Shown in pieces: positions 11,127-45,255 of a stretch of 64,000 nt of DNA. How positions within the stretch are numbered: the stretch's first letter is position 1; the number at the start of each line of letters is the position of its first letter. The stretch is from Plumapathes pennacea (lineage: Eukaryota > Cnidaria > Anthozoa > Antipatharia > Myriopathidae): NCBI GenBank assembly GCA_964036295.1, contig OZ038473.1, positions 1,681,501 through 1,745,500 on the forward strand, in the 5' to 3' direction. The translations under genes were made by a program, and so were the position numbers. The notes under the pieces were generated by a model that did no database searches, was not told the origin of the DNA, and was given only the letters and a program-made list of their open reading frames with translations.

Positions 11127-11157
<31 letters not shown>

Positions 11158-22786: not shown

Positions 22787-23152
22787 ATCTTGTCCATGTC
22801 TTGGTCAAGTCGTATTCTGTCGTTGAAGTTCCCCTCTGAATATAGCACCAATCTGACTTAGTTTTCCTCATTCTTTTTTCTCAACACCAGACAAGTGGTC
22901 TGCAAACCAACGCAGATCCTATATATTTAACGATAAACTAAATATTACCATAAATGGCCGTTTTCCGTGCTCTACAGTAATTTAGAATAGCTTTGTCATA
23001 GTTAATCAACTAATTTGTAGTGATTGAGGAGCCGCCGTAGCAAATATTGCTTTAACATGCACGTGTTCATAGCCTTCTGCAGAGTTTCGAGTTTCGGACA
23101 AAACCGTAATAACCTTCAGATTGAAAGAAGACGGCGGAAGTAACCAGAGAAA

Positions 23153-24172
23153 ATGGCCTCGAATATTTCCGAGATAGTAAATGGCCTTTATTCACCTACT
23201 TCACCACTCACCATCACTATGGCCTTCCTATACGCTACGATCATTATTTGTGGTCTATCTGGGAATGCCTTGACCATAGCAATTGTGTGGCGAAATAAGT
23301 CCATGCAGTCACCGACAAATCTACTTCTAGTGAACATCGCAGTGGCTGATGTGTTGTCTCTCCTGCTGTGTTCAGTACCATATGCAGTGTCTGTGTCTGG
23401 TAGACACCCGAGTGGGAAGCTAGGAGACTATTTGTGCAAGTTTCTAACCGGCCATGCGACCACAGCTGTTACAGTGAGCGTTACGTATTTGACACTGGTG
23501 TTACTGGCCGTGGAACGTTATCACGGGATCGTGAAGCCCTTCCAGAAAGAGCTGAGGCTTACAAAAGCGAGGGTCGTCTTTGCCATTGCGCTTCTTTGGT
23601 TGTTCTCAATTGGAATCTGTGTGTTTGCATTCGTCGGAAGCAGATATGATGAAGAGTACGGTAGATGTCTGGACCCGTGGGTACCCGAGATTGCCTATCT
23701 ATCGAGAACTGCCTTAACGGGTGTGTTAGCAGTCCCTGGAGTATCATTCTGTTTGTTGTTTTACTGTTATTTCCAAGTCATTAGAAGCGTATATTTTGCA
23801 AACAACAACAGCCGGATTCTCAAGAAGGCAGACCAGGTTTCTAAAAGACGGATTGTCAAGATCCTGTTGACTGTCACAGTCGCTTTTCACATCTGCTATG
23901 CACCATTTCTTCTGTTTGAAACCGTAATCTCCAACATGGATCCAACCAACGTGACAAACGATTACGAAAGGGTTTACACTATATACAGGGTCTTCACATT
24001 TTTTATATACACAAACTCTTGTCTGAACCCATTCTTCTACGGATTCCAGAGTTCAGCGTTTCGACGGAATCTAAAGAACATTCTTGGCTCGTGTTGGAAA
24101 AAAACCAAGATAAGAAAAAGAGGACGTTACACAATGAAATCGAGAAAGACTTCTATTGAAACAGGATTCTAA
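23153..24172 (+). CDS. Rhodopsin-like (class A) GPCR, paralogue 2
   Basis: Single-exon, 339 residues, the tandem copy of 18331-19350. All receptor landmarks are kept: D2.50, ERY at the end of helix 3, CYAP in helix 6, NPFFYG in helix 7, loop cysteines. Differences are scattered (roughly 25 residues), with clusters at the start of helix 5 and in the C-tail. The clean frame and mostly conservative changes suggest both copies are kept as working genes. The leader differs from copy 1 by about 180 extra bases (about 22930-23110), so control may differ. Confidence 0.92.
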   Translation: MASNISEIVNGLYSPTSPLTITMAFLYATIIICGLSGNALTIAIVWRNKSMQSPTNLLLVNIAVADVLSLLLCSVPYAVSVSGRHPSGKLGDYLCKFLTGHATTAVTVSVTYLTLVLLAVERYHGIVKPFQKELRLTKARVVFAIALLWLFSIGICVFAFVGSRYDEEYGRCLDPWVPEIAYLSRTALTGVLAVPGVSFCLLFYCYFQVIRSVYFANNNSRILKKADQVSKRRIVKILLTVTVAFHICYAPFLLFETVISNMDPTNVTNDYERVYTIYRVFTFFIYTNSCLNPFFYGFQSSAFRRNLKNILGSCWKKTKIRKRGRYTMKSRKTSIETGF

Positions 24173-24727: not shown

Positions 24728-27062
24728 TCACTTCAAAAATATCACGAAGATTCCTGTCATGACACCAACTGCGTAACACGACAAAGGCTGACATCTCAAC
24801 GGCACGGACCTTGCTAGAACAGCTCCCACAGTGCTGTTGGTGCCGTTGAGATGAATCGTAGTGTTACTCCAAGTTGCGTTATTATTTGTGACAATCGTTG
24901 TCACGCCGTCTGTACCTTTGGTGACAATCGTTGTCACGCCGTCTGTGCCCTTGTGAGCGATAGTCGTACGCCTGGTGGGTTGTGGTTTTACGGTCACGAC
25001 ACGTCGTGGGAAGACGTTTTGAGCGTAACGCCCATCGTTGCCGAGTGGACTGTACTTGATGACGAGAACCCACATTTTGTCTCTGCGTTGTACCCAGGCC
25101 ACGCCGATTTTTTTTGTGCTTTTCCAAACCAACTGATGAAAAGAAAAAAGTCCAGGATTAGAAAGCACGGTATGAAACTAGTAATTCTGTACTAGGCGGT
25201 CCTTTAGAGCCCAGGTTATATCTCAGGCTCAAATAGTCCTAGAGGTTCTAAACTTGTTTTGTCTCTCTTACAACATGACATATATAATCGTCTTGAGCTA
25301 AAATGTGTGGTTAATTAGACAGACAAAAACCTCTGCAGTAAATAATGGCCAAAAGGGCCCATATCTGCTAGAAGGCTGATGTACCTGTGTAAAGTGCCCC
25401 GTTTGTGCAGACCATCCGGGCTTCTTGTAATTGTATTTCTTCTCTTCTGAGTAGAAGGCCATGATGGCTACTTTACAAGGATTGCTTTCCTTTGTCCTGG
25501 TCGCATACAGATTACCGGCGTTATTGCTCTCATGTTCGAACTTATTGGTTCTGGCCAAATAATTTGCCCATTTTACGGCTTTTTTCTCCAAGTCAGCATC
25601 TAAATTGACTCGCGCAACCTGGGAAAATAGTTACAAGTAAGAGTGTGGAATACATATGCTGGGTATTTGCTCAGTCCATTGGTCAGTCGACTGGTCAGCC
25701 ATTCAGCTGTAGTAAGTCAATTTATAAATCAACAATCGGTCTTTCAATCAGTCGATATAATTTGCATGGGTACTTTGTCTGTATAAGTTTGATTGTTCAG
25801 GCTAAGAAAAAAGATCAATGAGTCACCATAAAAAGGCTCCGCCTACCTGATGCATTAGTCGATAGTAGTTGTGCCATTGTTTGCATTGCTTCTTCTGGTA
25901 TCCTGTCAGAGCACCTGACCAAATATACTAAGATGTCAGTATCAGCCAGTAGACCTTTTCTGCAACTAAAGTCTGTTTACATGGAAGAAGGGACACCCAC
26001 CAGAAAGGTCAAAAAATGGCCCCCCTTTACATGCCAAGCGCTATCCCTAGGGCTACCTCACCAAGGACAAAAAACTTGGCGGGAATTGACAGACACCTTG
26101 TCCATCTAAACTTGGCCCTCCTGGGAGGGTAACCCTACCTCGAGCGTGTACATGGCCAAAAGTTGTCCTTTCTGGGAGGGTAACCTAAGCAAGGAGATAA
26201 GGTAACCCTCCTTCTAGGTAACCCCAACTATCATGTCAACGGAACAAGGAATTTCAATAGAGAAGGGTGACCCTTCTAGGAGGGTGTCGTAAATTTAAGA
26301 CTATCAGTAATATAATCCAACTCTGGTCACTTCTTATGGACGTTATAGTTCCATCTTTATTTGCGAGGTTTAATTGCTGAATGAGTTTATAAGGCTCTGT
26401 GTTGAGCGGACAATGTTTGCTTATTAACAGCAATATTTACACAAGATGCATATTTTTTAGTCCTGGCTTAGCGATGCATCGCTAGTGAAGTGTCCAATTA
26501 AATCAATACTTACAACAAAGGAATGCTACATAAATAAGCGAGCACACAACGTAGAAAAAGAAAGTTATTTTACAGCTGAATGCAAGCTTTGAGATGTATA
26601 AATGACATAAGCGATATACAAGCACTCTATACAACCGCCATTAGTCGAGAATAACCTTCACTACAAAATTATGGGGAGAAATGAACCGAATTATTTGGTA
26701 ACTAAGAAGAATTTTGAGATCAGTGTTAAATTGCAAACCCAAAATTGTATGAAGTGTACCTTTCCCGTTACACTGTGTAATGTAAGTAAAATTTGTGTGC
26801 AACGGCGTTGAAAGGATTCACGATGGTTGTATGTTACACAATGTAAATTGTCTCGCATTGCAGCTTTGCCCTGTTTTTTAGGGTTTCCTTGTCCAATATT
26901 TCCTGTGCACATGAAAATTTACGACCCGAAATTCGTCCTCTATTCAAAACGTACAATGACAAGGAACATTCAGATTAGAAAAACACACACAGTACCTGTA
27001 CTGCTTGAGACCAGCGAAACCAAAATCCAAGCAATGGGAAAAACAAGTTTGAAAACTTCCAT
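24728..27062 (-). CDS. Secreted CAP/SCP-domain protein with Thr-rich linker and hydrophobic C-tail
   Basis: Four exons join in phase: 26996-27062 (ATG at 27062-27060), 25847-25914, 25385-25618 and 24728-25132, giving 257 residues. Exon 1 encodes a clear signal peptide (MEVFKLVFPIAWILVSLVSS). The CAP fold follows: CKQWHNYYRLMHQ, KWANYLA, SNNAGNLYA, the HFTQLVWKSTKKIGVA signature and YSPLGNDG. In CAP proteins such as GAPR-1, CRISP and Ag5, His and Glu residues form a metal site; the HFTQ histidine is present and the usual GENL glutamate reads AGNL, so one ligand is lost. Two KGTDGVTTIVT repeats and an NxT-rich stretch lead to a hydrophobic end (about 24730-24775) that could be a GPI signal or anchor. 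Only duplication unit 2 carries the gene. Confidence 0.8.
25960..26290. repeat. GGGAGGGTAACC-rich probable MITE
   Basis: Repeated GGGAGGGTAACC blocks (near 26125, 26195, 26210) and short self-complementary segments (AGAAGGGTGACCCTTCT near 26262) sit in the large first intron of the CAP gene. The ends are not clear. Confidence 0.35.
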
Positions 27063-27670: not shown

Positions 27671-27727
27671 GCCATCAACGGGATTCGAACCCAAGCCCTG
27701 CGACGCCCTAAGCACTAACTACATTAG
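27671..27727 (-). repeat. tRNA-like (SINE-type) sequence at the end of GPCR 3
   Basis: B-box-like GGGTTCGAATCCC (27680-27692) and A-box-like TAGTTAGTGCTTAGGGCG (27704-27721), minus strand. The A-box-like segment contains the stop codon of the GPCR at 27708. Confidence 0.55.
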
Positions 27728-28796
27728 TGCGGTTCACAGAATTGTTTGGAAGTGTCTGCAGACCACTGCGTCGCTGGAAGGACTTGGCAGCTAGCTGGCG
27801 AAGTCCATTCTGCTCTTGATTTCTACCACACATTCGACGAAGCATTCCCACAGCGGTAGAACGGATTTCAGGCACGCAGGCACAATACACAAACGGATTT
27901 AAGCACGAATTCAAGAAAAGAAGAGTTCTGGCAAAGTCAGTAAGGCATTCCATCAGGACAGTTTTCTTACCAAACTCTTCGAAGAACACCGCGCACATAT
28001 AAGGAGCATGAGAAAGGACGAAAAGCAAGTAGATACATAGCGTGCTCGACGCAGATTTCCTATACTTTGCCACGTTCAGAGTGCTGTTGGCTCCCTGTTG
28101 TTGCGGAGCTTGTGTTATCGACGGTTTGTGTACCTGGCGGACGGACCGGCTTCGACGGCGAAGGCCGCGGAATATCTGGATATAAGCCATCGAGGAAACG
28201 ACCATGCAAAGACTGAGAGAAACGACCGCTAGCAAAAGGAAGGCCTTATTGCTCCAGAACCACATGGACGTCCACAATCCAGCCGACGCCCAGATTACGA
28301 AGAGAGCCAAGCAAACTCGTTTTGTGGTCACAATACCGCGATATTTCAAAGGAGTGGAATACGCTAAGTATCGATCCAAACTTATCGCAGTCAAAGTCAT
28401 CATTGCGCTGCCGATGAACAGACAGGAGACAACGACCCCACAGGTCAGGTAAAAACACTGGAATTCAAGCAGTTCTGGAGACGTTTTTGTAATCAGGAAG
28501 ACCGTGAATATTGGCTGAGCAACCAAGCCAACACCAAGACCGGTCAAAACAAGGCAGCCAAATAGTAGTTTGGACGGCAAGTGCAAGCATTTGCTTTTCC
28601 GAATTGCGAGGAAAACCAAAGTGTTTGCCGAAGTCGAGATGACTGCCATCACTATATTAAGTGCAGCATTCACGATGTACGGGATACTTCTTCTATCTGT
28701 CTCGAAATAAACAGTATGAGCCTGATGGCAATGATCCATTTCCTCAATTTCCAACTCAGTTCCGTTCATAAAAGTTGCTATTCTCAGTTCGGTCAA
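27708..28796 (-). CDS. Rhodopsin-like (class A) GPCR 3
   Basis: Single exon, 362 residues, a family different from the two plus-strand receptors. Two N-terminal NxT sequons region (NGTELE); helix 1 STSANTLVFLAI; a true DRY at helix 3 (SLDRYLAYS); a long basic third loop (about residues 210-245) with RRRSRSVRQ and poly-Gln; helix 6 LLFVLSHAPY without the CWxP tryptophan; helix 7 NSCLNPFVYC. The general style is that of expanded amine/adenosine/melanocortin-like cnidarian receptor families; ligand unknown. The C-tail ends NRTNVVSA just inside a tRNA-like repeat. A fragment of this tail is duplicated at 22636-22786. Confidence 0.9.
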   Translation of the reverse strand: MTELRIATFMNGTELEIEEMDHCHQAHTVYFETDRRSIPYIVNAALNIVMAVISTSANTLVFLAIRKSKCLHLPSKLLFGCLVLTGLGVGLVAQPIFTVFLITKTSPELLEFQCFYLTCGVVVSCLFIGSAMMTLTAISLDRYLAYSTPLKYRGIVTTKRVCLALFVIWASAGLWTSMWFWSNKAFLLLAVVSLSLCMVVSSMAYIQIFRGLRRRSRSVRQVHKPSITQAPQQQGANSTLNVAKYRKSASSTLCIYLLFVLSHAPYMCAVFFEEFGKKTVLMECLTDFARTLLFLNSCLNPFVYCACVPEIRSTAVGMLRRMCGRNQEQNGLRQLAAKSFQRRSGLQTLPNNSVNRTNVVSA

Positions 28797-29581
28797 TAGT
28801 TGGCTCTATTCGTGTCTTCTTGTTGAATCATAACGATTTAAAGCTTGACTGAATAATCTTCAACTTGTGTGGTCCCCGGGCTCGTGGTGTGATTACGAAT
28901 TGATGCTTTAACAGAGAAATGAAAAGCAATTTTCAAGAATTTGCATCCTGGTGATTTGTTTACTAAATGACTTTGTAGATTTGGTAGTAGATAAAATGTT
29001 TCTTTTTATTATTATTTTCTCAGTTATTTTCTATAATTGCAGTTGTTCCTTCATGTAGAGCCGCTCCGTGAAGCCAATCATGATACCAGCTTGACGCATG
29101 TACGGACGTGTATGAAGATTTTCTGCAATCTTCAATTTGTCAAGCTCTTCGAACTGTTTCTTTGAAAACTGTAGGAGACCTCACCGCTATGGAAACGGGT
29201 AAACAAAACGTAATGTGCAGCTGCAAGCGACAAACATACAAAACAAAAGTCAAGACCCTGGGGCTGAAAATGAACTTGCACTTTGTTTCAAGTCGGTGCT
29301 ATATTTGGGAGAATTTCAGGCCCAGTCCTCTTGACAACCACGCGCAGTTCACGAGGCGGAGGCCACCCGATGTTAAAACTTGGAGGGCAGATTGGAGAAC
29401 TGCTATATCCAAGATGTCGAAGAAACGAAACTGCAACGATATATTCTACGAGTCCTCGACCAAAAAAAACCATTAGCGTATGAATACTCAAGTCCATTGA
29501 ATCCAGAGATGAGCTTATCTTTGTCTCCCTATACCAGACAAAACCATACGAAACTAAGTCACGTGTTTGAACATTGTCAGT
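28797..29581. other. Intergenic stretch between GPCR 3 and the vinculin/catenin gene
   Basis: No gene recognised. It should hold the GPCR 3 promoter and the 3' UTR of the minus-strand gene; a minus-strand AATAAA (29005-29010) is a possible polyadenylation signal for the latter. Confidence 0.5.
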
Positions 29582-30963
29582 CTATACATGTACGATGTCC
29601 ACCAGTGACGGTGATGACGTGCTGTTCTCGTGTCTGCGCAGGCCCAGTTGACCACGTGGTGCAGTCAGAGCCTCAATCGCACGTTGGCGCTTCAGGGTTT
29701 TCTTCCACTGGAAAGCGAGTTGAGCCGCTTCTGCGTGGTCAGCGGACGTGCTCTGTTCAGGTGGTCTCAAACCCTGACGATAACGAAAGGTTTGTTAAGC
29801 ATTTCGCTGTCAAAAGCGATTTAAAACTTCCAAATTTCAAAAAACTTCCAAAACTTCCACACTGTCAGATGTCATCACTCAAACGAAAGCTCCGGGTGAT
29901 TACAATCTAAGAGCAGTGTTTACGTTAAACATTTTGGTCAAAACAAAATTATATATTGGGGGTGGGGTGGGTAGGGGATACCTTTACACAAGCTACTTCG
30001 GCGGCCTTGAGAGTCTTGACAACCGCCTGCATCAGGTTCTCTGCGTTCTTCACGAGCGTAGCATCAGCCTGAAGTAAGAAAAGACATCCAGCCATTTAAT
30101 ATCAACACAAGGAAGGTCAATAAGTGGCAAAGATTAAGGACAGCAAGTTCAAAGCTCGGTTACAACAACGTCTGGGCCTAACCCAGGGTTTGGCTACTCG
30201 TGCTTTGAAGAACTGGGCCCCGAACTGGGCCCAAACTGGGCCCGTCTCTGCTTCTGTCCTCAACTCTTTCTCTGCTATTGTGACATCGCTGTCATCCCCT
30301 CCCCTCCCCTCCCCCCTCCCCTCATGTCGTCACTGACCGAATAGTCCATAGGCGTAGCCGCTTTAACGGAGGAGATAATCTTGAGCTGATTGCTGATGGT
30401 CGGAATGTACTCTGCGTAATACAGGAGATCTCTCTTGCACCTACAAGAAACGAGCAGAAAAAAAAACAACGATTCAACAGCCGTACGTAGAATGTGAGTC
30501 AGTATAGCAAAGAAATAGAGTATGCGCCAGTGTAGCATGCTGAGTTATAGAAACACGCGGGGATTTGCAGGGAGGACGAGAGTGTGGAGAAGCACTTCTC
30601 GAAAGCAAACGAAGAAGACTCCTCACCGCTCGTCGATGCACTGTTCAGCGATGATTTGGGCGAAGTTCCACATCACTTTCCCGTTATCAGCTATCGCTTT
30701 GGCAGTGTTAATCATCTCGGTCTTGCTCTGTAATAACAAACAAACAAACAAATAAACAATCAAACAAACAAACAAACAACGAATTGGGTCCAAACATGAC
30801 AAGCAAAGGGAGAGAATTCATGCTGCACCTGCAATTCCCCTCGCCCACGAGCAAACTGGGCCATCTGCATCACCTGTTGCGCCATTTGTTTCGCCACTTT
30901 TACTATCGAGTTGTTCTCTTCCTCCCATTTGTCTGTTTCGTCTTGTAAAATGCGTGCAGCCAT
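29582..30963 (-). CDS. Actin-binding tail of the vinculin/catenin protein (exons 27-31)
   Basis: Exons 30829-30963, 30627-30727, 30338-30440, 29985-30068, 29582-29773. The helical tail starts MAARILQDETDKWEEENNSI, continues AKQMAQQVMQMAQFARGRGEL and CKRDLLYYAEYIPTISNQL, and then NAENLMQAVVKTLKAAEVAC, all matching vinculin/catenin tail helices. If exon 30 is read through, translation stops at 29949 with VSPTHPTPNI. A good donor (AAG-GTATCC) before that and an acceptor at 29774 allow a final exon encoding QLAFQWKKTLKRQ..., which resembles the vinculin C-terminal arm. The last exon is therefore a proposal; the first four are firm. Confidence 0.8.
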
Positions 30964-33900
30964 CTACGAGAAACGGGAAAGGGAACAAATAAAGCAAGAC
31001 AATCGATAGGTTACAAGCAAAAAAGTTGTTCAGTGAAAACACTCACAGCAATGGACTTAGAATTCTTTCTCGCTCTCAGCTCTTCCGTGGACGCCGATCT
31101 CATTGCGGGGTCTGGGCGCGACAGAGCTGTCACACTGAAAGCGCGCCTGTGACGGTCAAAGTCGGTCCAGGACCTTGCGGACGAGCTGGATTGGTTGAGG
31201 GACTCGGACGAAGAGAAACGTTCGTGCAGCTCGTCTACGACAGCCTTCCTCATGAGATCGGTGTCACTCGCCGACCCGCCGGGACCTCGCAAGCGGCGGA
31301 CTTCGGGAAGTTCATCGGTGTCTGACAAGGAACGTTCATGAACCTTAAAGAAACAGTGGGAGCGAGACATTAGTCGGCCGTATGTGTTGTAGTTCAAACC
31401 ATATGGACATGACTTAGAGAGCCAAATGCCCATTGTTACCCCTCTTCCGCAATGAATCTGTCAAAATATATTTTAAGATCTGCGTTAAATAACAATGTTT
31501 GTCGCCAATTATATCTCATAGTTTGAAGCCTGGTACCGAGCCTCAGCAATTTGACTGGGTCACGTGGATATAAAGAATCTCTCTGCTGACGTTTCGAGCC
31601 ACAAACGTAAATGAAAATATGATTGGAAACCAGGGGCGTCTTAGGTATTTAACCGTTAACAAGTCAGGGCTCAGGGAAACTTCTTTTTAATCATTTTTAA
31701 TTCTCACCTTGTTTTTACTGTCCTGGTCAGTCACTCCCGTCCGGGGTGGGGAGGGTGTACGGTCCGTAGCTCGGGCTCCTGGGGGGTGGTGTCGGGATGA
31801 TCCTGCGATAGCTGCAACTTCGTATTCGTTTAGAGATTCAAAGCTGACGCCTTGTTCCAGCTGAGGGCCATCCAGTAGGTCTTGAAAAACGTCTGGAAAT
31901 GGACAAATAAACGACGAACTGTTAATGTGAATAGGCAAACGAAGAATGTCCGCAAATAAATAGATACTGTACGTACATCGAAGAATTAAAGTTGCGTGCA
32001 ACTGGTCTATTCAACACAACACAAATAGTTATGATAATTTGGGAAACAGAATAATACACTTGTACAGTAAATATAAAGTAAAGGTAACAGTACAGTGAAC
32101 CCCGCTATCTCGAACTCTCAAGGGAATCGAGAAATAGTTCGAGTTAGTGGGGAATCGAAATACCGGGGTTCTACCAAGGAAAATCTCTACCCAGTTCATT
32201 TCCAAGGGAATTCGGATTCCGGTCAAGATAACGGGGATTTCGAGATAACCGAGTTCTATTGTAGTCTTTCTCAACTATGCGTACGAAAGTCTCCGCGACA
32301 GACACACCATCAAATTAGAAAAGAAGGTAGTGCCTTACTTTGTACTGCAGAGTGATCAGCATCCGGGAGCTCGTCAAGTGTTGCCATTAGCAACTGAGCT
32401 TTCGAGGCCCACTGACGGCGCAACATCTGAAAATGCTCCACAGTGGGTTGGTCCGGATTATCTGCAAAGCACCACGTGACTATTCAGATCATGAGTCAGA
32501 TTCTCCCAACCAAACAGAAAAAATGACGTACAAATGACGTGTTGAGAAATCAGAGTTCAAACAACTTTTGTCCCGAGTGCGAGTTGAGTGTGTAAATACG
32601 TGTAAGAATACATCTAAGTGTAAGTCTGTGAATCTGCATTTGAAGACGAGTATCCATGCGTGCTTGTGACGTGTGTGAGCACGCACACGCGTGTGTTCGT
32701 GTGTGTATGCGTGTGTGCAGTACGTGGAGCAGGAGGTGTGTTCGTGTGTATACAAGTGTGATCAATCGAGTGCAATGCACGTGTTAGTATGCGTGGATGT
32801 TCGTGAGTATCCGTGCGCGTGTGAGTATATGCACGCGTGTTTATTCGTGAGCGGCACGTGTCGGTACGCGTGCGTGCGCAGGAGAGAGACTGGGAAAACT
32901 AACCGGCCAGAGCACGAGCAGCGGCAATCACTTGTGGCGTGAGTCGGTCAATAAAGTCTCCTGTCACACGAACATTTCTCACTTTACTGGCGACTCGCGA
33001 CTTTTCCACAGCTTTACTGGCGTGTGCAGTGACTCGAGCCACACGTGCCGCCAGTTCTTGTGCTTGTACTTCGAAGTGTCGCTCTTGCTGCAGTCGGTCC
33101 TCGTCCAGCTCCGCCTTGCTGACGGCCAGTGCTGCGCCCGCGAGTCGATCAACGGGAGCAGAAGCATCAGCGGTAAGGTCGTCCACCAGCGCTGTTAAAA
33201 GGTGCGCCTTGATTGGTGGAAAAAAACAATCAATTTAAAACGCGAACGCAAGAATTCTCGTTTACTGTATATGTTGTGTACTCCTACTGTACTACTGCTA
33301 ATAATACTCTGTTCACACCAACTAAACCTGTTTAATTAAACCAAGTTTACAAGACTGCGTTTTCTAAATCCTGCTTTGATTTTTTGTCAATAACACAACA
33401 TTTTACACCACCTCGCACAGGTTGTACAGTTGGACTGGTTTTAGACCAGTTTGGTTTGCCGTGCGTGCATTGCGAACGGTAGACCTAACTAAACAAGTTT
33501 TATTAAACACCTTTTAAACAGGTTTAAGCGTTGGTGTGAACGAGGTAAAATACTACTACACTAGTACTACTGTTGCTGCTACTATTGCTTACCTTAGCTG
33601 CCCACTCTCTCTGCAGAAGGCCCATCCTTTCCACGGTGCCCATGTAAGACAGACTCTGGCCCACAGTCGTGTTGCCACGCAACGCCATGTCTGTCACCAC
33701 ACGAGCTGTGTCTTGCAGGTCAGCGGTCAGCCTTTCAACGTCAGAGACGGTGGATTCAGCGACGCTGACCTTCTTGGGATTTCTGCAGCTGTGACGAAGA
33801 AAATCAAAACCAGAGCAGCATTTACAAGTACCATTCTATGATGTGAAAACTCCTACTGCACTCGAACAATCTGGTAGCCTGCGCTACACTTACCCAGCGG

Positions 33901-36900
33901 TCGCGGCACTCGCCATCTCCTTCAACATCCGGGCATACGAGGCCAGCATCCGGGATCTCTCTTGCAGGGCATGATGGTCTCCCGCCATGGCCGCTGACGC
34001 CAACTGCTCGACTGGCGCAGAGGTGCCGACGGTGACATCATCGACTGCGAAAACGAGGCTGTGCACCTTTGATGCCCAGTCTCTCCGGAGCTGTTCCAGG
34101 CGCTCCACGTTCATTATGTCCGAGGGGTTGCGTACGACGGCCTGGGGAACACAACGAGACGTGTACAGTTGTACAAAGATGATAAACAAGTAAATTCTGA
34201 CGCAATTTCTATGTGATGAAGCTCACATAGGAACAGCGAACAGCGCGAAAGTGACCTTGACTGTTCCCACATATGAAGCAAACATAGATGTGAATTATCA
34301 ATGCCACTAAACCCATTCATGAAAAACAACCTGCAAACTAAACTATGCGCGCACATACCCGTGCAGACGACGTCAGATCCGGCGTGATTTGTTCAATCTC
34401 CTCTGACGTCACACGCACGAGTTCTATGCGCTGAAGCGAGGCTGGATCTCGCGCAGGCGCCTCGCCTTCACTCCCAGCATCCATTGCGTAATCCTCGGCG
34501 TCGGCTGCGGCCTTGGTCGATGAAGCGAGCTGGCGAAGTCTCGTCACGTGCCTGTTGATGTTGTCCACCTGCATAAGAAAAGATTACTAAGAAAAAAAAT
34601 CAAACTTTTCACCCTCACCACTGCAACCACTGCAACAAACATAAAGAAGCACTCAAGGCTTAAACGTAATCGTCTGTACACTCCAACGCCATTTTCGACT
34701 TCATGGTAAATAGTTTTTGAACATTTCTTTCCACATCGTTACTTTATAATCAGGTTGATGTGATACGCCAGTACCGGTTTTACCTGTTTCTTCAGCTCTT
34801 CTGCATCTCCAGACGTGGCGGCTAGAGCAAGCTTGGAGGCAGCCGCTGACCAAGGCATGACGAGGTCGTCCACAGCTGTTGACAGCACGTGCACTTTGCT
34901 CGCCCACTCTCGACCAATCGCATGCAACCGTTCTACTGCAACCTCGTTCCGCGGGTCAGCGGACACGTTTCGCGCAGCTTCCACTATGAGCGGCGATAGT
35001 TTTTCGATTTCCCCGGCAGTCACGAGGACCAGTCTGTAAAAAAAAAAAAAAAAAAAAAATGGAACTGAATTTTTCCCTTGTTTCTGACGTGTTCAATACT
35101 GCGAGAACTAATGTCTCTTATGAAAGCCTTGGTGCTTCGTGACATCCACGTCAAATGAATATCGTGACAATATCCCTCACTCCGGCCCTCGACATTGCGT
35201 GACATCTGTGTTCAGTATTGCGGGAACTATTGTCTCTTATGAAAGCCTTCGTGTTTCGTGACATCCACGTCAAACGGATATCGTGAAAATAACCCTCACT
35301 CCCTCGATATTACGTGACTTCTGTGTGATTGTAACATACATCGAATACCGTGACACAAACCTTACTCCCTCCATATTGCGTGACTTCTCAGCTGATCCAT
35401 CCGCGAGTCCTTTCAGTGTGTCTGTCTTGCTCAGAATGTCCCGGACTCGAGCCTCGATCTCATGGGAGTCCCTTCCTCTCGCCGCTCTGACGAGTCGTGA
35501 CACGGGAGCACGTGACGTCCGCGAGGGCCTGGACACATGCGTAGTTCGACCGGACAGCGGACTCTCAGACAGCCGTCCCAATCCTTTGAAATAAAAACAC
35601 CGGCACGTCAAGCAGTAAGCGGTGACGTGATAAACTTGCACTCCCGCAATAAAGCATCCTGATCTTAGGGCGACTCCATAAAAATGAGCGAATAGTCATC
35701 GCTTACCGAGTAAAGCTTTCCTATCTATCAACTCCAACTCTTCGTCATCCACCAGAACGCTGTCAAGCAAGTCACCACTGATTCTACTCCCGTGCGGTCT
35801 CTCCCGTCTTATTTCTCTCGGAGGTAGAGTTGGTTTGATTTGGGATTCATCTGGGGATTTCTGCAGAAGAAACAGGGAGCTGGCTGATGATATTGACGAT
35901 GATGGTGGTGGTGGTGGTGGTGGTGGTGGTGGTGGTGACCGAAACCGAATGGGGCAGCAGAATATCTTACCCTGTTTTCATGCAGTCCAGGAAACTCCTG
36001 ATCACTGAGAGATGACGTAATGCTTACGGAGCCCATGTCGTCCAGCAGACTGCCACCCTCCCCCACAGAAAGATCGTCACTGCCTGCAAACGAGGTAAAA
36101 TATATATTTTAACTTTTTCTGATGTAAACTAAAGAAAGTCAGGAGCAAAACAGAAAATTCTAAACAAATAAAATACAATTGAACGTCGCCAGTATCAAAA
36201 CCAGAAGATCATAAAAGCATTTTTCAACGGCGTTCAGTTTTTAACTGCCACTGCATGTATATACGTAATGTTCAAATACATTATTGTGGACCTACTGCAC
36301 ACTCTTGCTAAGTCAAAAGGATCAGTGGTAAAGGGGCGGTGTTCAAGGGATGGGCAAAGGAACGGAGGAGGGAGGGGATGGGATGAATTGATTTAAGTAC
36401 AGCTTAATACCTGTATCATCCAGACCATGGGCGGCCAATAAATCATCAAGATTCTCTGACTGGGCGAAAGATGATGTTTCACTCAGTTCGGCATCAGTTC
36501 CTACGAAATCTGCGAATCAATAAAAAAAATTAATATAGGCGGGAGATAGCATCATAGAACTCTGACAAGAACAAACTAAAATGGCTGGTAGTGTGGGCGA
36601 TTTTGACCCCTGAGCCTGCTCAGAGATCGGTTTAAGGTACTGTAACCCACAGTTAACGAAATTCTGCAGAGTTTTAATTAAAAACTTCCCAAAAAGGTTA
36701 CTCCAGCTCCAAACATATTGAGGAATTTGTTGCTTGTAAAAGGTTTTTAAACTTCTGGCACAAAATGATAACGTTCAGACTTAACCCAGGGTTAGTCAAA
36801 CTGTGCTTTGAACGACCGGGCCCTGAATGGTTTTGTCTAAGTTTTGGAACTTGTTAAGACCCATTTCCATTTTATTATATTTTCAACTTGAGCAAGCGGG

Positions 36901-39900
36901 CGTTGAGAAACGCAAGAACTAAACTCAGAATAAGACATAGAGAAAATAACAACAACAATAACAACAACAACAACAACAGAGTTTGTCGGCGTTTTGTTTG
37001 CTTTATTGTATGGAAAACTTCACGGTACCTAGTCCAGTTTCTGTCGGTCGCTTGACTGCAGATTTAATGACCTTGACCTTTTCTCCGATCAGATGCGCAT
37101 GCTCTGTGAACTGTTCGTGACGCGTCACATCCCACATGTTGGTGAGAACGTCTTCAGCAGACCGAGCCAGACTGGGGAGAGCTATAGTAAAGAACAGCAG
37201 AAATACGTCAAACGTGAAGTGTGACTTCTGTTGTTTGAAGTTTAAGGTTCGCGCGATGAAGAATGCGGCAATCTTAAGCTCTCTAATAACGAAGCACGCA
37301 CCTATAACTAGCTGTCCGCTTGCACTTTGAAGCTTTCCTTTGTACCTCGGGTCAGCGGTTGCGTTCATCTCTTTCTTGGTCACGTGAATGAGGCGACGCG
37401 CGCGACCCAGGAGCCGCAAGGAGGTCTGGGATAGCTTCTTGACGTCTTGCTCAGTAAGAGCTTCTCTGCATCGCGCAATATCTTCCCGGACTTGTCTCTC
37501 TGAGTGAAAAATAGGTAAATGTGTGAAAAGAAATGTGAAGACGGGGGAGGGGAATAAAAAGTGGTCAGAAGCGAAGTAAAGGCGAGAGGAAAGAAGAAAC
37601 CTGAAGGAAAATAAAGGCGAGAGAAGTAAGGAGTGAAAAGAAGTTAGGGGAAGAAGAGTTATCACAGCACTGTAAATAGCAAATAGAAGAGCGAATAGAA
37701 ACGACATTCAAGAAGAGGGAAGAGTAGATGAGAAAAGTATAAGTAAAAGAGAGCAGGGAAGAGAGAAGAGAGAGACAAAAAGAAAAGAAAAATAATACGA
37801 GGGAATACAACAAATATAAGAGTGCAGAGCAGAGCAACGAAGACAAGAAAAGACAAGAGAGAAGAGAAGAGCAGAGGAGAGGAGAGCAGGCAGAGAAGAA
37901 ATACCAAAACAAAGAAGAGGAAATAAGACGGATCAAATAGTGAAAGAAGAAAAAAGGACAAGACAAGATTTAAAAAAAAGAGACATTCACCAGTAGCGTC
38001 CACAAAGTGCGTTACATCGGTGACGTCATCAATAACATCCGTCACGGCCTCGATCTTGGCCGACCACTGTTTTCTGAGGACTGCCAGGCGTTGCGCGGCA
38101 CCAGCTGCGTGAGGAGTCCTGCGCACCGCCAGAGCAGTGGACAGGAGTTTTGGGGACAACTGCTCTATCTCGGCCACAATACTATTTATTGTGCCCACCC
38201 CTGTGATAAAACAGAGGCTAATGACATCACACTGCTTTGGTATTTTCCCAGAATTCAAATTCTTGTGTTGCAATGAATTCTTGGAGATTCAGAAGACATC
38301 ACGGCCATGTTGGTTAGCAGTACAACAGAGGATAATGAGCAATCTGTTGTTAAAATTCAACCAATATGACCGCCATGACGTCACTGTAGAATGGGATCTT
38401 GCTTTTAAGTGAAGTCACTTCTGTATGTACTGTACGCTCCAATTTCTACGAAGGTTTTAGTTTTTGACAGTTGTCCGAAAACCGCTCTATTCGTAAACGC
38501 TATGAATCATAATTATTATAGATGTTAACATGGATTGTCAGACTGTAAATCATTGGCGTCAACCCCTCTGAGACTGCCTGTAAGCCTTAAAGTGGGGTAG
38601 TGTGTGTGTGTGTGTGGGGGGAGGGGGGGTAAGAGGAGAAGGGGGGTACATTCTGTTGTCTACAGCAGACTCACTTCTTCTGTCTGCGGACAGTGCCGCC
38701 GCATGTCTGGAGACTTGCACCAGGTTAGCAGATTCTTTCTTGAACTCTTCAGCTTTATCGTTAAACTCCTTGGCCGCTTCCTCCAGCGCTGTCACGCTGT
38801 TCTCCTGTATCGATAATTATGAGTGGCTAAAATATTAAGGTGCAGATAGTACACACGATCTGATTTAACTATAATACAGTAGACAGTGGTACACAGACAT
38901 CACCCATGCATTTTCTTCTTAATAGGTTGATCTGAGAGAATCTGCATTTTTATCTTGGGAGTTAACGGGTTAAGGGTTTTTCAAGATTGTATGAACCCTG
39001 GAGAATATCAAGCTGAGATTCATTCTTACCAAGAGAGGAGCTGTTGCTGCTGTGAGGAGATTATGCACAGGAAGTTCAGCATCTGCGAACACACTACTGA
39101 TCTGATCAACAACTGCTGCTGTTACAAGACGATCAAGCTTCTTCAGTTCTGTGGAAAGCTTTTCTGCTGTACGGTCCAAGCGTCTCCTGAAATGAATAAT
39201 CTAATATTGTAAACATTGTAATGACAGCGAGGTAGTGTGGAAAGAAAAACAGTCCCTTGAAAATTGCTCTATAGAGTGGACATAACCAGAATTAAACAGA
39301 CACATACATGTACAAATAACAAGAAATAGACAGCCTACAGAATAACAGACGGACAGCTTTAAAGCACTTGATGATCTATAAGACATATCACTGAACTTTG
39401 TTCTGGATGAGAGAGGATTTACTGTCACAGCTTTCTGAGACTCGCCAAGTTCATTTCTCGTCTGAAGAACCTGCAACAAAAAATAGCTATCTCATTATAC
39501 AGATTTACACTGGACATTACTGGACAGCAAGTAAAGCCACAGCTATACAGACTTGCATGCCGAAAAAAAGGTGCACTTGTAACATCCAAATTGTGCAAAA
39601 TGTACAACAAAGAGCATGCACAGTCAGAGCTGGCCTGAGGTCCAGCAAAAAAGGATCAAAGAAACATCTGTGGATCGACTTGTTCAAATCTCAATTAGGC
39701 TAATCCTTTACAGTACTGTAGTTCCAAACGTTTGTGCCATTTTAAGGTCCAAAAATGAAAATGTTTGGCTTACAATACAGCTTCCTCGATGTGGTTTGAT
39801 CTAGAACAAGATTTCCAGTTAGTCTGTGATCAAAACTCTGTAAGTTGTTGGCCAAGAAGCTGGGATAAATATTTAGGTTACTTTTTACCACAACACACTT

Positions 39901-42900
39901 GTTTCTCGCTCTCTGATTGGTCGATTTACCGTGGTAAATAAGAGTCCAGACAACGATGCTGACGCCAGCTGACGCCAGCATGTCACATTTTGCAGCAAAA
40001 TACAACGAAAGTTTTCTGTATATTTCTAAATGTTGTGGTAAAAAACAAATTTCCACTGGTTTGCCGTGGTGTGGACTCTTATTTACCACGATTTACGTCA
40101 TCACATGGTCAAAATTTGTTGCGGACTCACTCTGTGAAGCGCCTCGTGAGTCCACAACATTTTGACCATGTGATGACGTAAATCGTGGTAAATAAGAGTC
40201 CACACCACGGCAAACCAGTGGAAATTTATTAAGTAGCTTAATCGAACTTTGAACAACCAGGCTGCTCTGTTCAACGAACCTTCTGACATTGCTGCACAAT
40301 TTTCTCACGTCTCAATCCATCAGAGATCTCAGCAACAGCCATACTGCTGCGCACGATAGCGTCAAGACAGCAATCCAGTTCATTACTGCTCCCCAGTCTA
40401 CTGTGCGGTGACAACTGATGCTGGGCCTGAAACGCAAGGGAGAGATTGGTTTTGAGGTGCAATGAGGTCACAAAACATCAACACACTTTATTCCCCTTTT
40501 CAGAGTTGAACAAGATAATACCAGCCCAGGATACACAGTAGTGTAGACTTTTTGCACTTTGAACAGCACTGTTACATTAAACAAGCCTACAGATTTTCAT
40601 TTCCCATGGAAAGTGTGCCCTATACGCATTAAAGTAATTACAACACTAAAGCCCTTGTGCCAATAGTGAACTAGTTCTGAGATGTTTAGCAGTCTTTCTT
40701 TCTATACGTTTATGAACTCGGAATTCTTCAAGGTACAGTATGATGGAATTCCTGAACAAATCAGCTGTGATTGTTGGTTATGATTGCTCATTATGAATTT
40801 TCTGGAAAATGTGGTTAGGGTGCCATTTAGATCACTAAGACCCTGTCAATACCTTGTCAATAGTTTCTGCCATGAGCCCAGATTTAGCCAGGCCCCCTTC
40901 ACTGCCTTCTCTGGATTGGACAGTTTTAATGATTTCTGTGCAAGCCAGCATGACTTGGCCCACAATGTAATCACGACTTGCCTGGAAAAAAAGGCAAGCA
41001 GCTGAAAACTAAATTGTTTAATTCTTTGGTCAACATGTGTATAAACACATTTTTTTAGCTTACCATGTGGCATGAAATTTTTACAGGAGTTTAATTTCAT
41101 GGATTTACAAATTTTTGTGTTTTGTGGGAACAAATTTTTGCAAACGAAGGCCGTTCGAAGGCCATAATATTGTTTACAGTCAATGTAATTAAACTTCAGT
41201 AATCCAACTAGTACAGAGAGTTATAATGTTAGTGGATTTTTTTTCGTAGGAGCTTATTTTTACAGGTCACATTTTTGTGGTTTATTGGAAAATCCATAAA
41301 AATTTCCTGCCACTTTTTAGTCTGATTTTCACAAAGGTAATGTGCATTGTTGCCATGCATATTGTAGGTTAGTGTACCTTAGCCTGAGGATTTCCTGGGG
41401 TTTTTAGACACGTTTGCATGGAGGTTGACAACATTTTGATGGATTTCTTCAGAATCGTCATGGAAGAAAGTAGCCTGTCCCGCAAGGAGGGGTTACTCAG
41501 CTCCTGAACAGGCAAAGGAAGTTGTAAATAACAACATAAACAATCAGAAAAATTCTACTTACCAGAGCTTTAAATGGTTTGCATAACAAAGCTTCACTTG
41601 TGTATCAGCTAGATGTGATATGTATTTAGTACAAGACTTTAAAGAAGACATGCAGGGGTGAAGATGAGATGGGCTGAAAGCAGTGACGTGCTGCTGCATC
41701 TGAATGTCTACTACAGATCTGTGGATTTTTCCTGCATTTCCATTTTTTATCCGCTAGGTACAGTACAGTAAATGCAATTAAGATTCCTGGACTTACCCTT
41801 TGTCGCTTGTCACAGAGGCTACCCAGCAACATTAATGATTCTGTAAACCCCTATAAAGGATAATTATTATAAAAGAATAACCAAATCATGAAATATATTT
41901 TTCATTGAGGCAAACTGCAGTACTTTTAAAGATCATATTAAGTTACAAGACATGAAATTTTATATACTTTTACTGATGTGTAATTATATTCTGTACCTTA
42001 AAGCTGACCACCAGTCCACGTAAAGATGTAACTGCCTCAACCAAACCAACTCGGTCCATTACCCAGCGGGCGGCACGCACAATTTTACGCACTTCTGCCT
42101 CATCATAAACAATTAAGATCTGTGAATAGAAAAAAGCAAACAAACAATTAAACCACTAGGTTATTACTAAAGACTAGAGTACTTTCAGTGATTGACTAGA
42201 TGCTACTGGCTACTGTAAGTGGTACTACCAGATGTCTCCTCAACAAAATCAGCCAAGATCTTTGGTAAGATCCTGTCAAGATCTTAGCTATTATCCTCAA
42301 CCTGGGCAGCCAGTGTGCAGTCAATGTACACATAAACCTTCAAGATAATCACCTTCATTGTTCCCTCCAGGATGTTCCTTGCAGAATCCACCAGATCATA
42401 CCGCACTTTGTGAGAGAAAGGTTCCTGTTTGACCTGGTGTGTCGCCAGAAGCAGACTATTCTTTGCATCGGTGAGCTGGTTGCATGCGACTGGCATTTCA
42501 GACTGTAAATCCTAAGAACAAATAACATTTTCTTTACAATATAATATTGCATATCTGCACAGTATGGAAAAGTTTCCATAAATCTGTTGTGCTAATGCAT
42601 TTGAACACATCTCTAAGTGGACACCTCTCTTGGACAGCAAATTTTGTCCTGTAATGTCTCTCTGTGGCAGACAATAATATCCATAATCTCTTGTCTATTC
42701 TAGAATTATTCTCTAAGGCCAACAGTAGACATATTTTTCAACCCTTTGGTTCAAGTTAGGTCTGTACCTCTCAAAAGTGGACACTGGATGTTTACAAAGT
42801 TTTATAACTGGCCAAATACAGTATTGTGCAATTTGACCTACCGTAAATGTTGAGCAAGGCAAGTTAGTGTGTGATATGGTACCTGTAACAAACAGATAGC

Positions 42901-43764
42901 CCACCTCATCTGCGGTCTCCACCAACAGTTTGTGGCCAGCAGCCACCAAATTCTCGACTGCTTCAGAAATGATCCGTCCACTGGGTATCAAGTCAGGCAA
43001 AGCGATTCCATCTCTCTCACTAACTTCATTGAGAATGATCAACTCTGACACCTTTCATGAACAGTGCAAAATACACAGTAAGGAAGCAAGTAAGAGTTTG
43101 ATAACTCAAGCAAACGTTTTGTAATCGGCTTTGCAACTACTGGGGTATGATGCAACACTTACAAATTCTCCCAACCGTTCAAGAAGAAAAAGAATAAGTG
43201 ATGAAGTGAGAATTGAATAGTTTAATCAGCTGTCATCTGAGCAAGGTACCAAAAGCCAAGTTCTCCTTACTGTATGATATATTTGTGCTGCCGAAAACTG
43301 AAGGAGAAAATTGAACTTGATCAATCTTGAGAGTGAAAGGGTTATAATTATAACAGACACCTCTCTAATACGGACACTTGGCATGGTAGGTGAGCAGTCT
43401 CTGCCATTTTTTCAGTCACTATAAACTCTAACTGAACTGTCTTTAAGACAGTTGGAGCTGGTCGCTATGGTGTCCTTAGAAAGGGAGCTGACCACACAAC
43501 AACAAAACAGCTGATATTCAACCACATTCACTGCAGCAGCAATAGAGCGCTTTTCGGATGACTGTCGAAAACCAAAACCAAAGAAATCAAAGAGCCAACA
43601 ATGATGCGAGCAAAAACACGCCGGATCAATTAGAAGTACGAGCAAACCAAACGTTTCCCGAAGAAATGCAATATCCCATGTCAACCAACCTGAGCGGCGA
43701 TGGGCGCCAGAACCAGTTCAATCGACTTCGTTTGTACCAAGGATGACAGCAACTTGGCGGACAT
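29582..43764 (-). CDS. Vinculin/alpha-catenin family protein with expanded middle region
   Basis: About 31 small exons in consistent phase encode roughly 1,650 residues, against about 1,070 for vinculin and 900 for alpha-catenin. ATG at 43764. The N-terminus is vinculin-like (TKSIELVLAPIAAQVSELI, DGIALPDL), as in the talin/alpha-actinin-binding D1 head. The middle is organised like alpha-catenin, without vinculin's extra D2 repeat. About 570 residues of added acidic/proline linkers and helical modules follow, then a vinculin-type actin-binding tail. Family members link cadherin or integrin complexes to actin and unfold under force; that role is inferred. The weakest points are the 3' border of exon 9 (about 39340-39470) and the last exon. 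Divergence from both classical families suggests a separate paralogue. Confidence 0.88.
30290..30327. repeat. C-rich run in vinculin/catenin intron
   Basis: CCCCTCCCCTCCCC-type tract directly downstream (minus strand) of the exon 29 donor; low complexity. Confidence 0.7.
31047..36509 (-). CDS. Expanded linker and repeated helical modules (exons 15-26)
   Basis: Exons: 36411-36509, 35971-36083, 35707-35860, 35361-35583, 34784-35033, 34359-34568, 33894-34141, 33593-33788, 32904-33207, 32339-32461, 31708-31892, 31047-31343, all phase-compatible. Exons 15-18 encode acidic and Ser/Pro-rich linker (LDDLLAAHGLDD, SITSSLSDQEF). Exons 19-24 repeat the M-III core four more times: REWASKVHVLSTAVDDL (exon 19), RRDWASKVHSLVFAVDDV (21), QREWAAK|AHLLTALVDDL (22/23) and RRQWASKAQLLMATLDEL (24), three of them preceded by an EIExL(S/T)P or FIDRLTPQVIAAAR helix. 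Exons 25-26 are a Pro/Ser/Arg-rich linker comparable in place to vinculin's proline linker. Nothing equivalent is present in classical vinculin or alpha-catenin. Confidence 0.82.
32560..32885. repeat. Degenerate GTGTGTG/CGTGTG-rich intronic tract
   Basis: Long GT-rich stretch with GTGTGTGAGCACGCACACGC-like alternating purine-pyrimidine segments between exons 24 and 23. No exon signal. Confidence 0.7.
33311..33540. mobile_element. MITE with GTTCACACCAAC ends
   Basis: Ends GTTCACACCAACTAAACCTG and the inverted AAACAGGTTTAAGCGTTGGTGTGAA enclose about 230 bp without coding capacity in an intron of the vinculin/catenin gene. An inner TTTAGACCAGTTTGGTTT / GGTTTAATTAAACC-type symmetry is also seen. 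Confidence 0.72.
35041..35400. repeat. Tandem duplication overlapping an exon border
   Basis: A poly-A run (35037-35059) is followed by about two and a half copies of a 125-130 bp unit (copies near 35085-35213, 35214-35330, and 35340-35400). Shared blocks are CTCTTATGAAAGCCTT, GACATCCACGTCAAA, CCTCACTCC and TTGCGTGACTTCT. The last copy overlaps the 3' end of exon 35361-35583. Confidence 0.7.
35899..35938. repeat. (TGG)n microsatellite
   Basis: About 12 GGT/TGG units in the intron between exons 17 and 16; would read as poly-His on the minus strand but lies between good splice sites. Confidence 0.85.
37029..43764 (-). CDS. N-terminal head and first M-type module of the vinculin/catenin protein (exons 1-14)
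   Basis: Exons: 43690-43764, 42905-43051, 42353-42511, 41997-42119, 41797-41850, 41378-41503, 40853-40981, 40280-40426, about 39340-39470, 39030-39186, 38675-38804, 37991-38200, 37302-37499, 37029-37181. Exons 1-7 (271 residues) align with vinculin/catenin D1: YDLVDSARNILEGT, then YDEAEVRKIVRAARWVMDRV. Exons 8-11 read like alpha-catenin M-I/M-II (LRREKIVQQCQKV; DQISSVFADAELPVHNLL). Exons 12-14 give the module EIEQLSPKLLSTALAV ... LRKQWSAKIEAVTDVIDDV, then GRARRLIHVTKKEMNATADP, which corresponds closely to alpha-catenin M-III. Exon 9 starts at 39470, but its donor is unresolved because exon 10 needs a phase-2 join. Confidence 0.82.
37560..37985. repeat. Polypurine/polypyrimidine tract in intron
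   Basis: The plus strand is almost pure A/G for about 400 bases (AGAAGAGAAGAGCAGAGGAG-type), just before exon 37991-38200. It is the pyrimidine tract of that intron on the transcribed strand, extended far beyond need. Confidence 0.8.
38885..38975. repeat. Fragment of the 'CTTTCACTCCC' TIR repeat
   Basis: Shows GAGAATCTGCATTTTTATCT and TGGGAGTTAACGGGTTAA, the right end of the dispersed family, degraded. Confidence 0.45.
40047..40227. mobile_element. Foldback element with ~80-bp nearly perfect arms
   Basis: Left arm (AAATTTCCACTGGTTTGCCG... from 40047) and right arm (ending ...CGGCAAACCAGTGGAAATTT at 40227) are almost exact inverted copies around a spacer of about 15 bases near 40130-40147. 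A related partial motif (GTGGTAAATAAGAGTCCAGA) lies upstream at 39932-39951. Located in a vinculin/catenin intron. Confidence 0.82.
43160..43345. repeat. Interspersed 'CTTTCACTCCC' TIR repeat, copy in first intron of vinculin/catenin gene
   Basis: ACAAATTCTCCCAACCGTTC at the left and CTTGAGAGTGAAAGGGTT at the right; inner TTTAATCAGCTGTCATCTGA and AAAAGCCAAGTTCTCC match the copy at 14765-14955. Confidence 0.75.
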
Positions 43765-43984: not shown

Positions 43985-45255
43985 GGGAAGCGAATTCCCA
44001 CGTAAGGACGGTTACCCCCTCCTGCAGTCTGATTATATTATGTCAGCGGTCGCCCCACTGTATTAATAACTAACCAAACGTGAAGCAGCGGTAATTTTCG
44101 CGCTGTTATGGTTTCTTTCTAGTTGCCGTTTTCTGTGTTCGTCTTTGGTAGCATCGCTCCAAAATGTAAATAAAAAAAGGATGATTTGTGAATGACTCGT
44201 TACCAGCTTCCCGCAGAGGTTCACCTCAGACACCTGGGGGGAATGGGGACCAGCAACCTTAAGCCCCTTGGAGGAATGGGGACAAGCAACCTCAGGTTCT
44301 TTGGGAGAATGGGGACCAGCAACCTCAGACCCTTGGGGGAATGGGGACCAGCAACCTCAGGCTTCTTGGGAGAATGGGGACCAGCAACCTCAGACCCTTG
44401 GGGGAATGGGGACCAGCAACTTCAGACCCTTGGGGGAATGGGGACCAGCAACCTCAGAACTGTCAACATGTTCTCGAGGCAAACATTAACGGATATAGTG
44501 AAATACTATCTGACAATGGCATTCACTGATATAGAGAAAACTAATCCCATTCCGTGCGTAACCTGGTAACTACCCTCCAGCAAAGAAAATGGCGTCTACA
44601 ACGGGAAGGGAATTCCCGCCCCTCCCGCAGTCTGATTATATTATGTCAGCGGTCGCCCCACTGTATTAATAACTAAACAACCTTGAAGCAGCGGTAATTT
44701 TTGCGCTGTTATGGTTTCTTTCTAGTTGCCGTTTTCTGTGTTCGTGTTTGGTAGCATCGCTCCAAAATGTAAATAATAAAAGGATGATTTGTAAATGACT
44801 CGTTACCCCAGCTTCCCGCAGAGGTTCACCTCAGACCCCTCGGGGGAATGGGGACCAGCAACCTCAGGCTCCTTGGTAGACAAAGAATGGAAACCAGCAA
44901 CCTCAGACCCTTGGGGGAATGGGGACCAGCAACCGAGTATTGATGGGACCCTCCCCTCCCCCCTCCGGGATATTTTTCTCTGATTCACGTTGATTTTAGT
45001 TACATTTTATACTAAAATTATACGAAGCGCTAATTTTCTATAAGAGTATTGTACGCACGTTTCAAATAAAACGCTTTAGGAACTTAGATATTTTATACTT
45101 TACGTCTTTCTTCGTACACGCTATTTCAATCCGATGTGACGTTTATTTATCACTGCACTTTTGTCAGTCAGTTATTGCTGTTGAGGGGCGACCGCTTACA
45201 TAAATAGTCAGACTGCGGGAGGGGGTAACCATCCTTACGTGGGAATTCGCTTCCC
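43985..45255. mobile_element. 1.27-kb non-autonomous TIR element carrying a minisatellite
   Basis: The left end GGGAAGCGAATTCCCACGTA and right end TACGTGGGAATTCGCTTCCC are inverted copies; similarity extends about 75-90 bp inward (GGTTACCCCCTCC, CTGATTATATTATGTCAGCGG). Inside, a left subterminal block (44018-44240) is directly repeated at 44618-44845, and each copy is followed by the 32-33 bp minisatellite. No transposase was seen. Confidence 0.75.
44237..44462. repeat. 32-33 bp minisatellite, seven units
   Basis: Units like AATGGGGACCAGCAACCTCA followed by GACCCTTGGGGG repeat seven times. The plus frame would give a GMGTSNLRPLG-type repeat, but no gene context supports translation. Three more units at 44832-44935. 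Confidence 0.85.

Follow-up and report, generated by a model that had tools for sequence, protein, structure and literature searches.

A divergent vinculin-family gene of Plumapathes pennacea with five predicted copies of the M-II module

The gene described here lies in a 64,000-nucleotide stretch of Plumapathes pennacea DNA (hereafter the window; assembly GCA_964036295.1, contig OZ038473.1; C12:1681501-1745500). By sequence it is a fourth, divergent paralogue of the vinculin family, separate from the animal's own vinculin, alpha-catenin and catulin-like genes. Its single gene model holds five homologous modules, together with a head and a tail that are homologous to those of the family. The repeated module is M-II as judged from residue numbering, with one copy in the normal place and four between M-III and the tail, a layout seen in no other family locus of this genome and in no solved chain examined.

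Results

A single gene model

The model comprises 30 coding exons on the minus strand, from an ATG at 43764 to a stop at 29582 (4890 nucleotides, 1629 residues), the strand and limits given in a preliminary description of this DNA. There is no internal stop, all 29 introns are GT-AG, their phases chain into one open frame, and the window is without any N. Exons were chosen by open frames, GT-AG sites and phase. In a splice scan the chosen pair was top-scoring at 26 of 29 junctions, while at junctions 2-3, 8-9 and 17-18 homology to the family alignment was preferred over a slightly better-scoring pair. The donor of exon 8 (GCT/GTCCGT, 39355) is poor and the boundary of this exon is uncertain. 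A codon score, with exons 1-13 and 26-30 as its training set against the introns, was positive in all twelve exons of the test set (14-25; between 0.17 and 0.59 bits per codon) and negative in the best frame of 28 of the 29 introns (intron 15, 0.12), the latter being a soft control because the introns themselves were the background. Three family-matched exons scored close to zero (exon 4, 0.04; exon 5, 0.06; exon 8, -0.07). The whole protein matched the Pfam Vinculin model PF01044 in six stretches (590.8 bits against a cut-off of 38.1; E 7e-177), which places it in the vinculin/alpha-catenin family, as first proposed.

Two neighbouring genes, or a mis-joined model in which exons 1-13 belong to one family member and exons 17-30 to another, would be compatible with the weak exon 8, with the three junctions that rest on homology and with the basis of the joined model in genomic sequence, not transcripts. 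However, the first part would then have no tail and the second no head, while joined they give the family-typical order of head, middle and tail; moreover, the phases of exons 14-16 match, their splice signals are usable and their coding scores are positive. An AATAAA just past exon 13, overlapping an in-frame stop, could also be read as the end of a first gene, but since the gene contains this motif eight times a single copy means little, and poly-A signals were uninformative on this point. We regard a split into two genes as very unlikely. Likewise, the model, built on genomic sequence only, does not set exons 15-26 apart as a separate gene, an outcome the preliminary description had considered.

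The repeated module is assigned to M-II

The units as scanned (U0-U4, about 115-130 residues each; residues 375-502, 768-881, 881-1013, 1013-1136 and 1136-1258) each passed the PF01044 cut-off alone (scores in Table 1). All five matches lay within profile positions 378-492 of 852, that of U2 being limited to 417-487 (second half only). All ten unit pairs beat every one of 500 shuffles in Smith-Waterman comparisons (z 8.7 to 21.7), and a tryptophan, a lysine and the aspartate equivalent to D503 of alpha-catenin are invariant across the five units. The extra block alone aligned without gaps to alpha-E-catenin 388-507 (E 1.4e-13, chain). Against solved chains, a five-unit profile matched alpha-E-catenin 400-507 best, and also vinculin 603-718, HMP-1 and, weakly, sponge VIN1. 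At E <= 1 this profile retrieved 23 sequences, of which 17 were family members (16 with one stretch, VIN1 with two weak ones) and six were unrelated chains (E 0.27 to 0.66).

Chain numbering was checked against the named residues W491, D503, D536, R548 and R551. By this numbering the unit ends just beyond D503, and one study puts D503 in M-II and R551 in M-III of alpha-catenin (PMC6814714); the repeated block is thus M-II. The D503 and R551 positions of alpha-catenin are both kept: U0 keeps the first, and the M-III equivalent keeps arginines at R548 and R551 (alignment, residue numbers checked). M-III, the identity first given to the module, was rejected by residue numbering, although the count of five stood. 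The tryptophan-lysine cores reported for exons 12, 19, 21, 22/23 and 24 were also found, with exon numbers one lower (11, 18, 20, 21/22 and 23).

The protein runs head, M-I, M-II (U0), M-III, acidic linker 1, U1-U2-U3-U4, linker 2, tail and C-terminal extension. Linker 1 (net charge -16) sits between M-III and U1 and linker 2 between U4 and the tail; neither has a Pfam match. Since U1-U4 are contiguous, the acidic and proline-rich linkers described as separating the modules only flank the block, and the added length is about 493 residues for the four units, or about 802 with both linkers, in place of the estimated 570.

Identity among units 1-4 is 30-36%, and U2 carries its own insertion. Recent exon duplication was rejected as the origin of the units, because none of the eight introns within them shares both alignment column and phase with another and because of this low identity. 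A unit tree gave no order of duplication (bootstrap 28-57), which together with the unmatched intron places suggests that the duplications are old. The unit 1 protein searched against the animal's own genome found only itself (two matches).

Four family loci in one genome

A search of the genome (290 Mb, 24 contigs) with PF01044 gave at least 28 matches in four loci, the other three being a vinculin and an alpha-catenin locus (Table 1) and a locus on C9 near 3.77-3.78 Mb that we take to be catulin-like. The animal's alpha-catenin lies on the same contig as the window gene, about 1.54 Mb away. An M-II model made from the units of the window gene plus two solved relatives detected the half of M-II that carries the tryptophan once in each of the three other loci and five times in the window gene; a model without U1-U4 gave the same counts except for the U3 half. 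Extra modules are therefore not standard among the solved structures or in this genome's loci, and known members mostly carry one, as had been stated.

By bit score the head is nearest vinculin (110, against 68.5 for sponge VIN1 and 56.9 for alpha-N-catenin), in agreement with the preliminary description. The tail scored 99.8 with VIN1, 93.1 with alpha-N-catenin and 86.1 with vinculin. The middle had been called alpha-catenin-like, which holds for its layout without D2 but not for its scores: alpha-E-catenin and vinculin each gave 89.9 bits (VIN1 47.3), with identities of 28% and 28-29%, respectively. Regional trees of head, middle and tail held four to six sequences each, partial and in some rows lacking exons. 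The head fell on the side of vinculin, though not within the pair of true vinculins (90.2/88; five sequences, some partial), apart from the alpha-catenin and catulin-like heads, which grouped together (100/100). The tail (six sequences) fell outside both a vinculin and VIN1 group (97/96) and the alpha-catenins (100/100).

The window gene is long-branched in each of the three trees, as a decaying gene without function might be. Against decay stand the 1629 codons without a stop, the GT-AG ends of all introns and the coding signal in all module exons, and we consider it extremely improbable.

Comparison with known family members

The head is 37% identical to that of chicken vinculin (VCL; 1st6, 1tr2) and 40% to that of the animal's own, and the tails are homologous. 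In the alignment the window protein keeps the alanine at the A50 position, to which we assume a functional role in vinculin. While 405 residues separate the head from the D3/D4 matches in vinculin, only 173 do so here; the match that ends at query 173 resumes at query 347, equivalent to chicken vinculin 575. With about 230 residues fewer, the window protein lacks D2. It also differs in its four extra M-II/D3-type units and in a tail that falls outside the vinculin and VIN1 group. The nearness of the head to vinculin would fit an ordinary vinculin of this animal whose repeats are the usual vinculin repeats of about 112 residues, but the true vinculin is a separate locus on C3, and the units find a single match in vinculin, at 603-718, which lies outside the classical repeats (taken here as 259-589). 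This alternative is highly improbable.

With alpha-catenin (CTNNA1/2; 4k1n, 5xfl) the window protein shares the head, M-I, M-II, M-III and tail layout, residues 10-633 aligning to 26-657 in one stretch. In contrast to alpha-catenin, it has five M-II bundles where alpha-catenin has one, and its head, nearest vinculin, is by sequence not of the beta-catenin-binding type; only 22 of 91 head residues are identical to the animal's own alpha-catenin. With sponge VIN1 (6bfi), which gave the best tail match, residues 11-616 align to 6-614, a similar length up to M-III. The VIN1 chain has 846 residues, however, with a weak M-II match (E 4e-4, two stretches) and a tail that groups with vinculin. Alpha-catulin (CTNNAL1) is likewise a vinculin-family member, but the catulin-like head groups with alpha-catenin, whereas that of the window gene lies on the vinculin side. 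Because the defining features of each were looked for and not found, the gene was not filed as vinculin, alpha-catenin or catulin.

Vinculin, alpha-catenin and alpha-catulin form three clades in one survey (PMC3141441). Another reports catulin among non-bilaterians only in cnidarians, and also an alpha-catenin-like clade (Miller et al. 2013) that is uncharacterised (PMC13245172). A literature search of titles and abstract openings, mostly non-subscription, returned nothing describing such an M-II repeat. A pattern search of public prokaryote and viral contigs, a poor place for an animal gene, gave 6 and 14 matches, none of them confirmed. Relatives annotated as vinculin-like may well exist, the eukaryote sequence databases lying outside the comparison.

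Structure prediction

AlphaFold was run on contiguous translations of exons 18 and 22 with six-row alignments. Exon 18 was predicted as a helix (residues 2-25), a turn and a second helix (30-74) running from U1 into U2 (predicted local distance difference test, pLDDT, 89.8; predicted template modelling score, pTM, 0.65). In a fold search with this model, alpha-catenin M-domain chains ranked 1, 2, 3, 5, 6 and 8, the best E of 0.11 not being significant.

Isoforms and features of the window

Exons 17-23 hold all four extra units and share the same phase at both ends (Table 1), so that skipping of this block, if it occurs, would leave the frame intact. In-frame cassettes are also formed by exon 14 and by exons 15 and 16 together. 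The AATAAA past exon 13 lies at 37007 (minus strand) and could give a shorter isoform that stops after M-III and has no tail. Within intron 17 (35089-35388) a 95-nucleotide segment is repeated at 89% and a 32-nucleotide segment occurs three times, one copy overlapping the 3' end of exon 17; these are possible decoy splice donors. Intron 7 (40044-40230) contains an inverted repeat with 72-nucleotide arms, 99% complementary and 43 nucleotides apart, that looks like a small hairpin element. An Rfam scan of the window found nothing reaching the gathering score.

Table 1. Coordinates of the vinculin-family gene in the window, and of two further family loci in the genome
Feature	Position	Strand	Evidence or remark
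Whole gene	29582..43764	-	30 exons, one frame; PF01044 E 7e-177
Vinculin-like head, residues 1-253, exons 1-6 (43764-43690, 43051-42905, 42511-42353, 42119-41997, 41503-41378, 40981-40853)	40853..43764	-	Vinculin alignment; 63/159 identical to own vinculin head
M-I equivalent, residues 254-383, exons 7-9 (40426-40280, 39470-39355, 39186-39060)	39060..40426	-	Exon 8 donor uncertain
U0, canonical M-II, residues ~384-503 (exon 9 remainder, exon 10 38804-38675, exon 11 38200-38001)	38001..39059	-	PF01044 66.3 bits
M-III equivalent, residues 504-622 (exon 11 end, exon 12 37499-37302, exon 13 37181-37029)	37029..38000	-	Alignments
Linker 1, residues 623-768 (exons 14 36509-36411, 15 36083-35971, 16 35860-35707, 17 start 35583-35516)	35516..36509	-	Acidic
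U1, M-II-like, residues ~769-883 (exon 17 to 35361, exon 18 from 35033)	34844..35515	-	PF01044 55.9 bits; gap-free alignment to alpha-E-catenin 388-507
U2, M-II-like with internal insertion, residues ~884-1011 (exon 18 to 34784, exon 19 34568-34359, exon 20 from 34141)	34028..34843	-	PF01044 39.5 bits
U3, M-II-like, residues ~1012-1136 (exon 20 to 33894, exon 21 33788-33593, exon 22 from 33207)	33163..34027	-	PF01044 40.2 bits
U4, M-II-like, residues ~1137-1261 (exon 22 to 32904, exon 23 from 32461)	32346..33162	-	PF01044 54.7 bits
Exons 17-23, in-frame block with four extra units	32339..35583	-	1554 nt, phase 1 at both ends
Linker 2, residues 1262-1424 (exon 23 end, exon 24 31892-31708, exon 25 31343-31047)	31047..32345	-	21% Ser/Thr
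Tail, actin-binding-domain equivalent, residues 1425-1566 (exons 26 30963-30829, 27 30727-30627, 28 30440-30338, 29 30068-29982)	29982..30963	-	Homology
Exon 30, C-terminal extension, residues 1567-1629 and stop	29582..29773	-	Alpha-catenin-1 match runs into exon 30
Vinculin locus	C3 10.12-10.13 Mb		Head pieces 55-88%, tail pieces 40-68% identical to chicken vinculin
Alpha-catenin locus	C12 3.262-3.276 Mb (3.26-3.28)		Pieces 54-94% identical to mouse alpha-catenins

Upstream of the start codon, a minisatellite with a unit of about 32 bp forms two arrays, about 0.5 and 1.1 kb away (44223-44458 and 44828-44934). Directly downstream of the gene lies a single-frame rhodopsin-type receptor (27708-28805, minus), the third in the window; the other two are tandem single-frame genes (18322-19350 and 23144-24172, plus) identical at 319 of 342 residues and 975 of 1026 bases. 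A CAP/cysteine-rich secretory protein exon lies at 25298-25630 (minus). Polycystin-1-like pieces occupy separate open frames at 1407-17313 (plus), with PKD repeats (eight stretches) and REJ, then PLAT, then a polycystin domain and PKD channel.

Discussion

We think it fairly probable that this five-copy M-II gene is a fourth paralogue whose lengthened rod links adhesion to actin. Its most likely function would be that of an adhesion-to-actin linker with a lengthened rod of helical bundles: an adhesion partner would offer an amphipathic helix as docking site for the vinculin-type head, the tail would bind actin, and the extra units, each presumably folding as a bundle, would form a long rod coupled in series, giving reach and extension under load. 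Such a rod would act in the manner of the talin rod rather than of alpha-catenin's vinculin switch. The analogy, if right, is to helical bundles in series between an adhesion-binding head and actin; talin itself is of another family, its Pfam models giving only E 0.054-0.36 on the window protein. A force-buffering rod is our best guess because pulled alpha-catenin passes through three-helix states as its M-I and M-II unfold (PMC5940241), and because talin is described as a force buffer through its chain of bundles (PMC4941051). Stepwise mechanosensing by the extra units, raised in the preliminary description, is possible, although under pulling the stable bundles are M-II and M-III (PMC4843013), and the vinculin-binding site lies in M-I, which is unrepeated and altered here.

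Alternatively, the extra units may be a static spacer or scaffold that binds partners and sets distance or stoichiometry, with no force-dependent unfolding. Published pulling data describe M-II and M-III as stable bundles, so that M-II lies within the mechanically more stable part of alpha-catenin (PMC4843013), and units 1-4 have diverged as separate binding faces might, U2 having its own insertion. Yet the block sits in series between the head and an actin-type tail and, with both ends anchored, would have to carry the load; the unfolding of pulled M-I and M-II noted above also speaks against a static element. This main rival is a serious possibility, though we hold it to be somewhat unlikely.

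Several observations weigh against a lengthened adhesion-to-actin rod of five M-II copies. The case is one of gene model and sequence comparison. A profile without the extra units leaves the tryptophan half of U3 below inclusion (E 0.018). AlphaFold modelled exon 22 as a single long helix over residues 2-100 (pLDDT 89.3, pTM 0.48), a result that either says nothing or speaks against a compact unit and does not support independent folding of the units; and the fold search with the exon 18 model gave 354 matches, none of them at E <= 0.001. The window protein has no match to an FPPPP-type Ena/VASP site, a motif we take to have a role in the vinculin linker, though not one established as defining outside vertebrates. 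Finally, the M-I vinculin-binding helix reads VLQTRNELGESQ in the window gene and VREALQGLLSEYM in the animal's own alpha-catenin; in the equivalent of alpha-catenin 325-360, own alpha-catenin keeps TRDDTRDKIIAECNAVREALQGLLSEYM where the window gene has LRREKIVQQCQKVLQTRNELGESQ. Hydrophobic positions of this helix, kept in own alpha-catenin, are replaced here (by eye, with the exon 8 boundary uncertain). Residues 325-360 in M-I are the vinculin-binding site of alpha-catenin (PMC4843013). M-I is not among the repeated parts of the window gene, and with its helix altered the classical alpha-catenin switch has probably been lost.

We offer, only tentatively and as a rather doubtful extension, that a deep-branching family lineage, older than the sponge's vinculin and the animal's own, made M-II its repeat unit and built an independent talin-like force ladder, optionally shortened by skipping of exons 17-23.

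The set of bundles is fixed in vinculin and alpha-catenin, both textbook examples of adhesion proteins that bear force. With a natural family member that has five M-II modules, M-II's own contribution to force transmission could be addressed, and the window gene, on the sequence comparisons above, would bring to four the lines of this family in the history of adhesion in animals.

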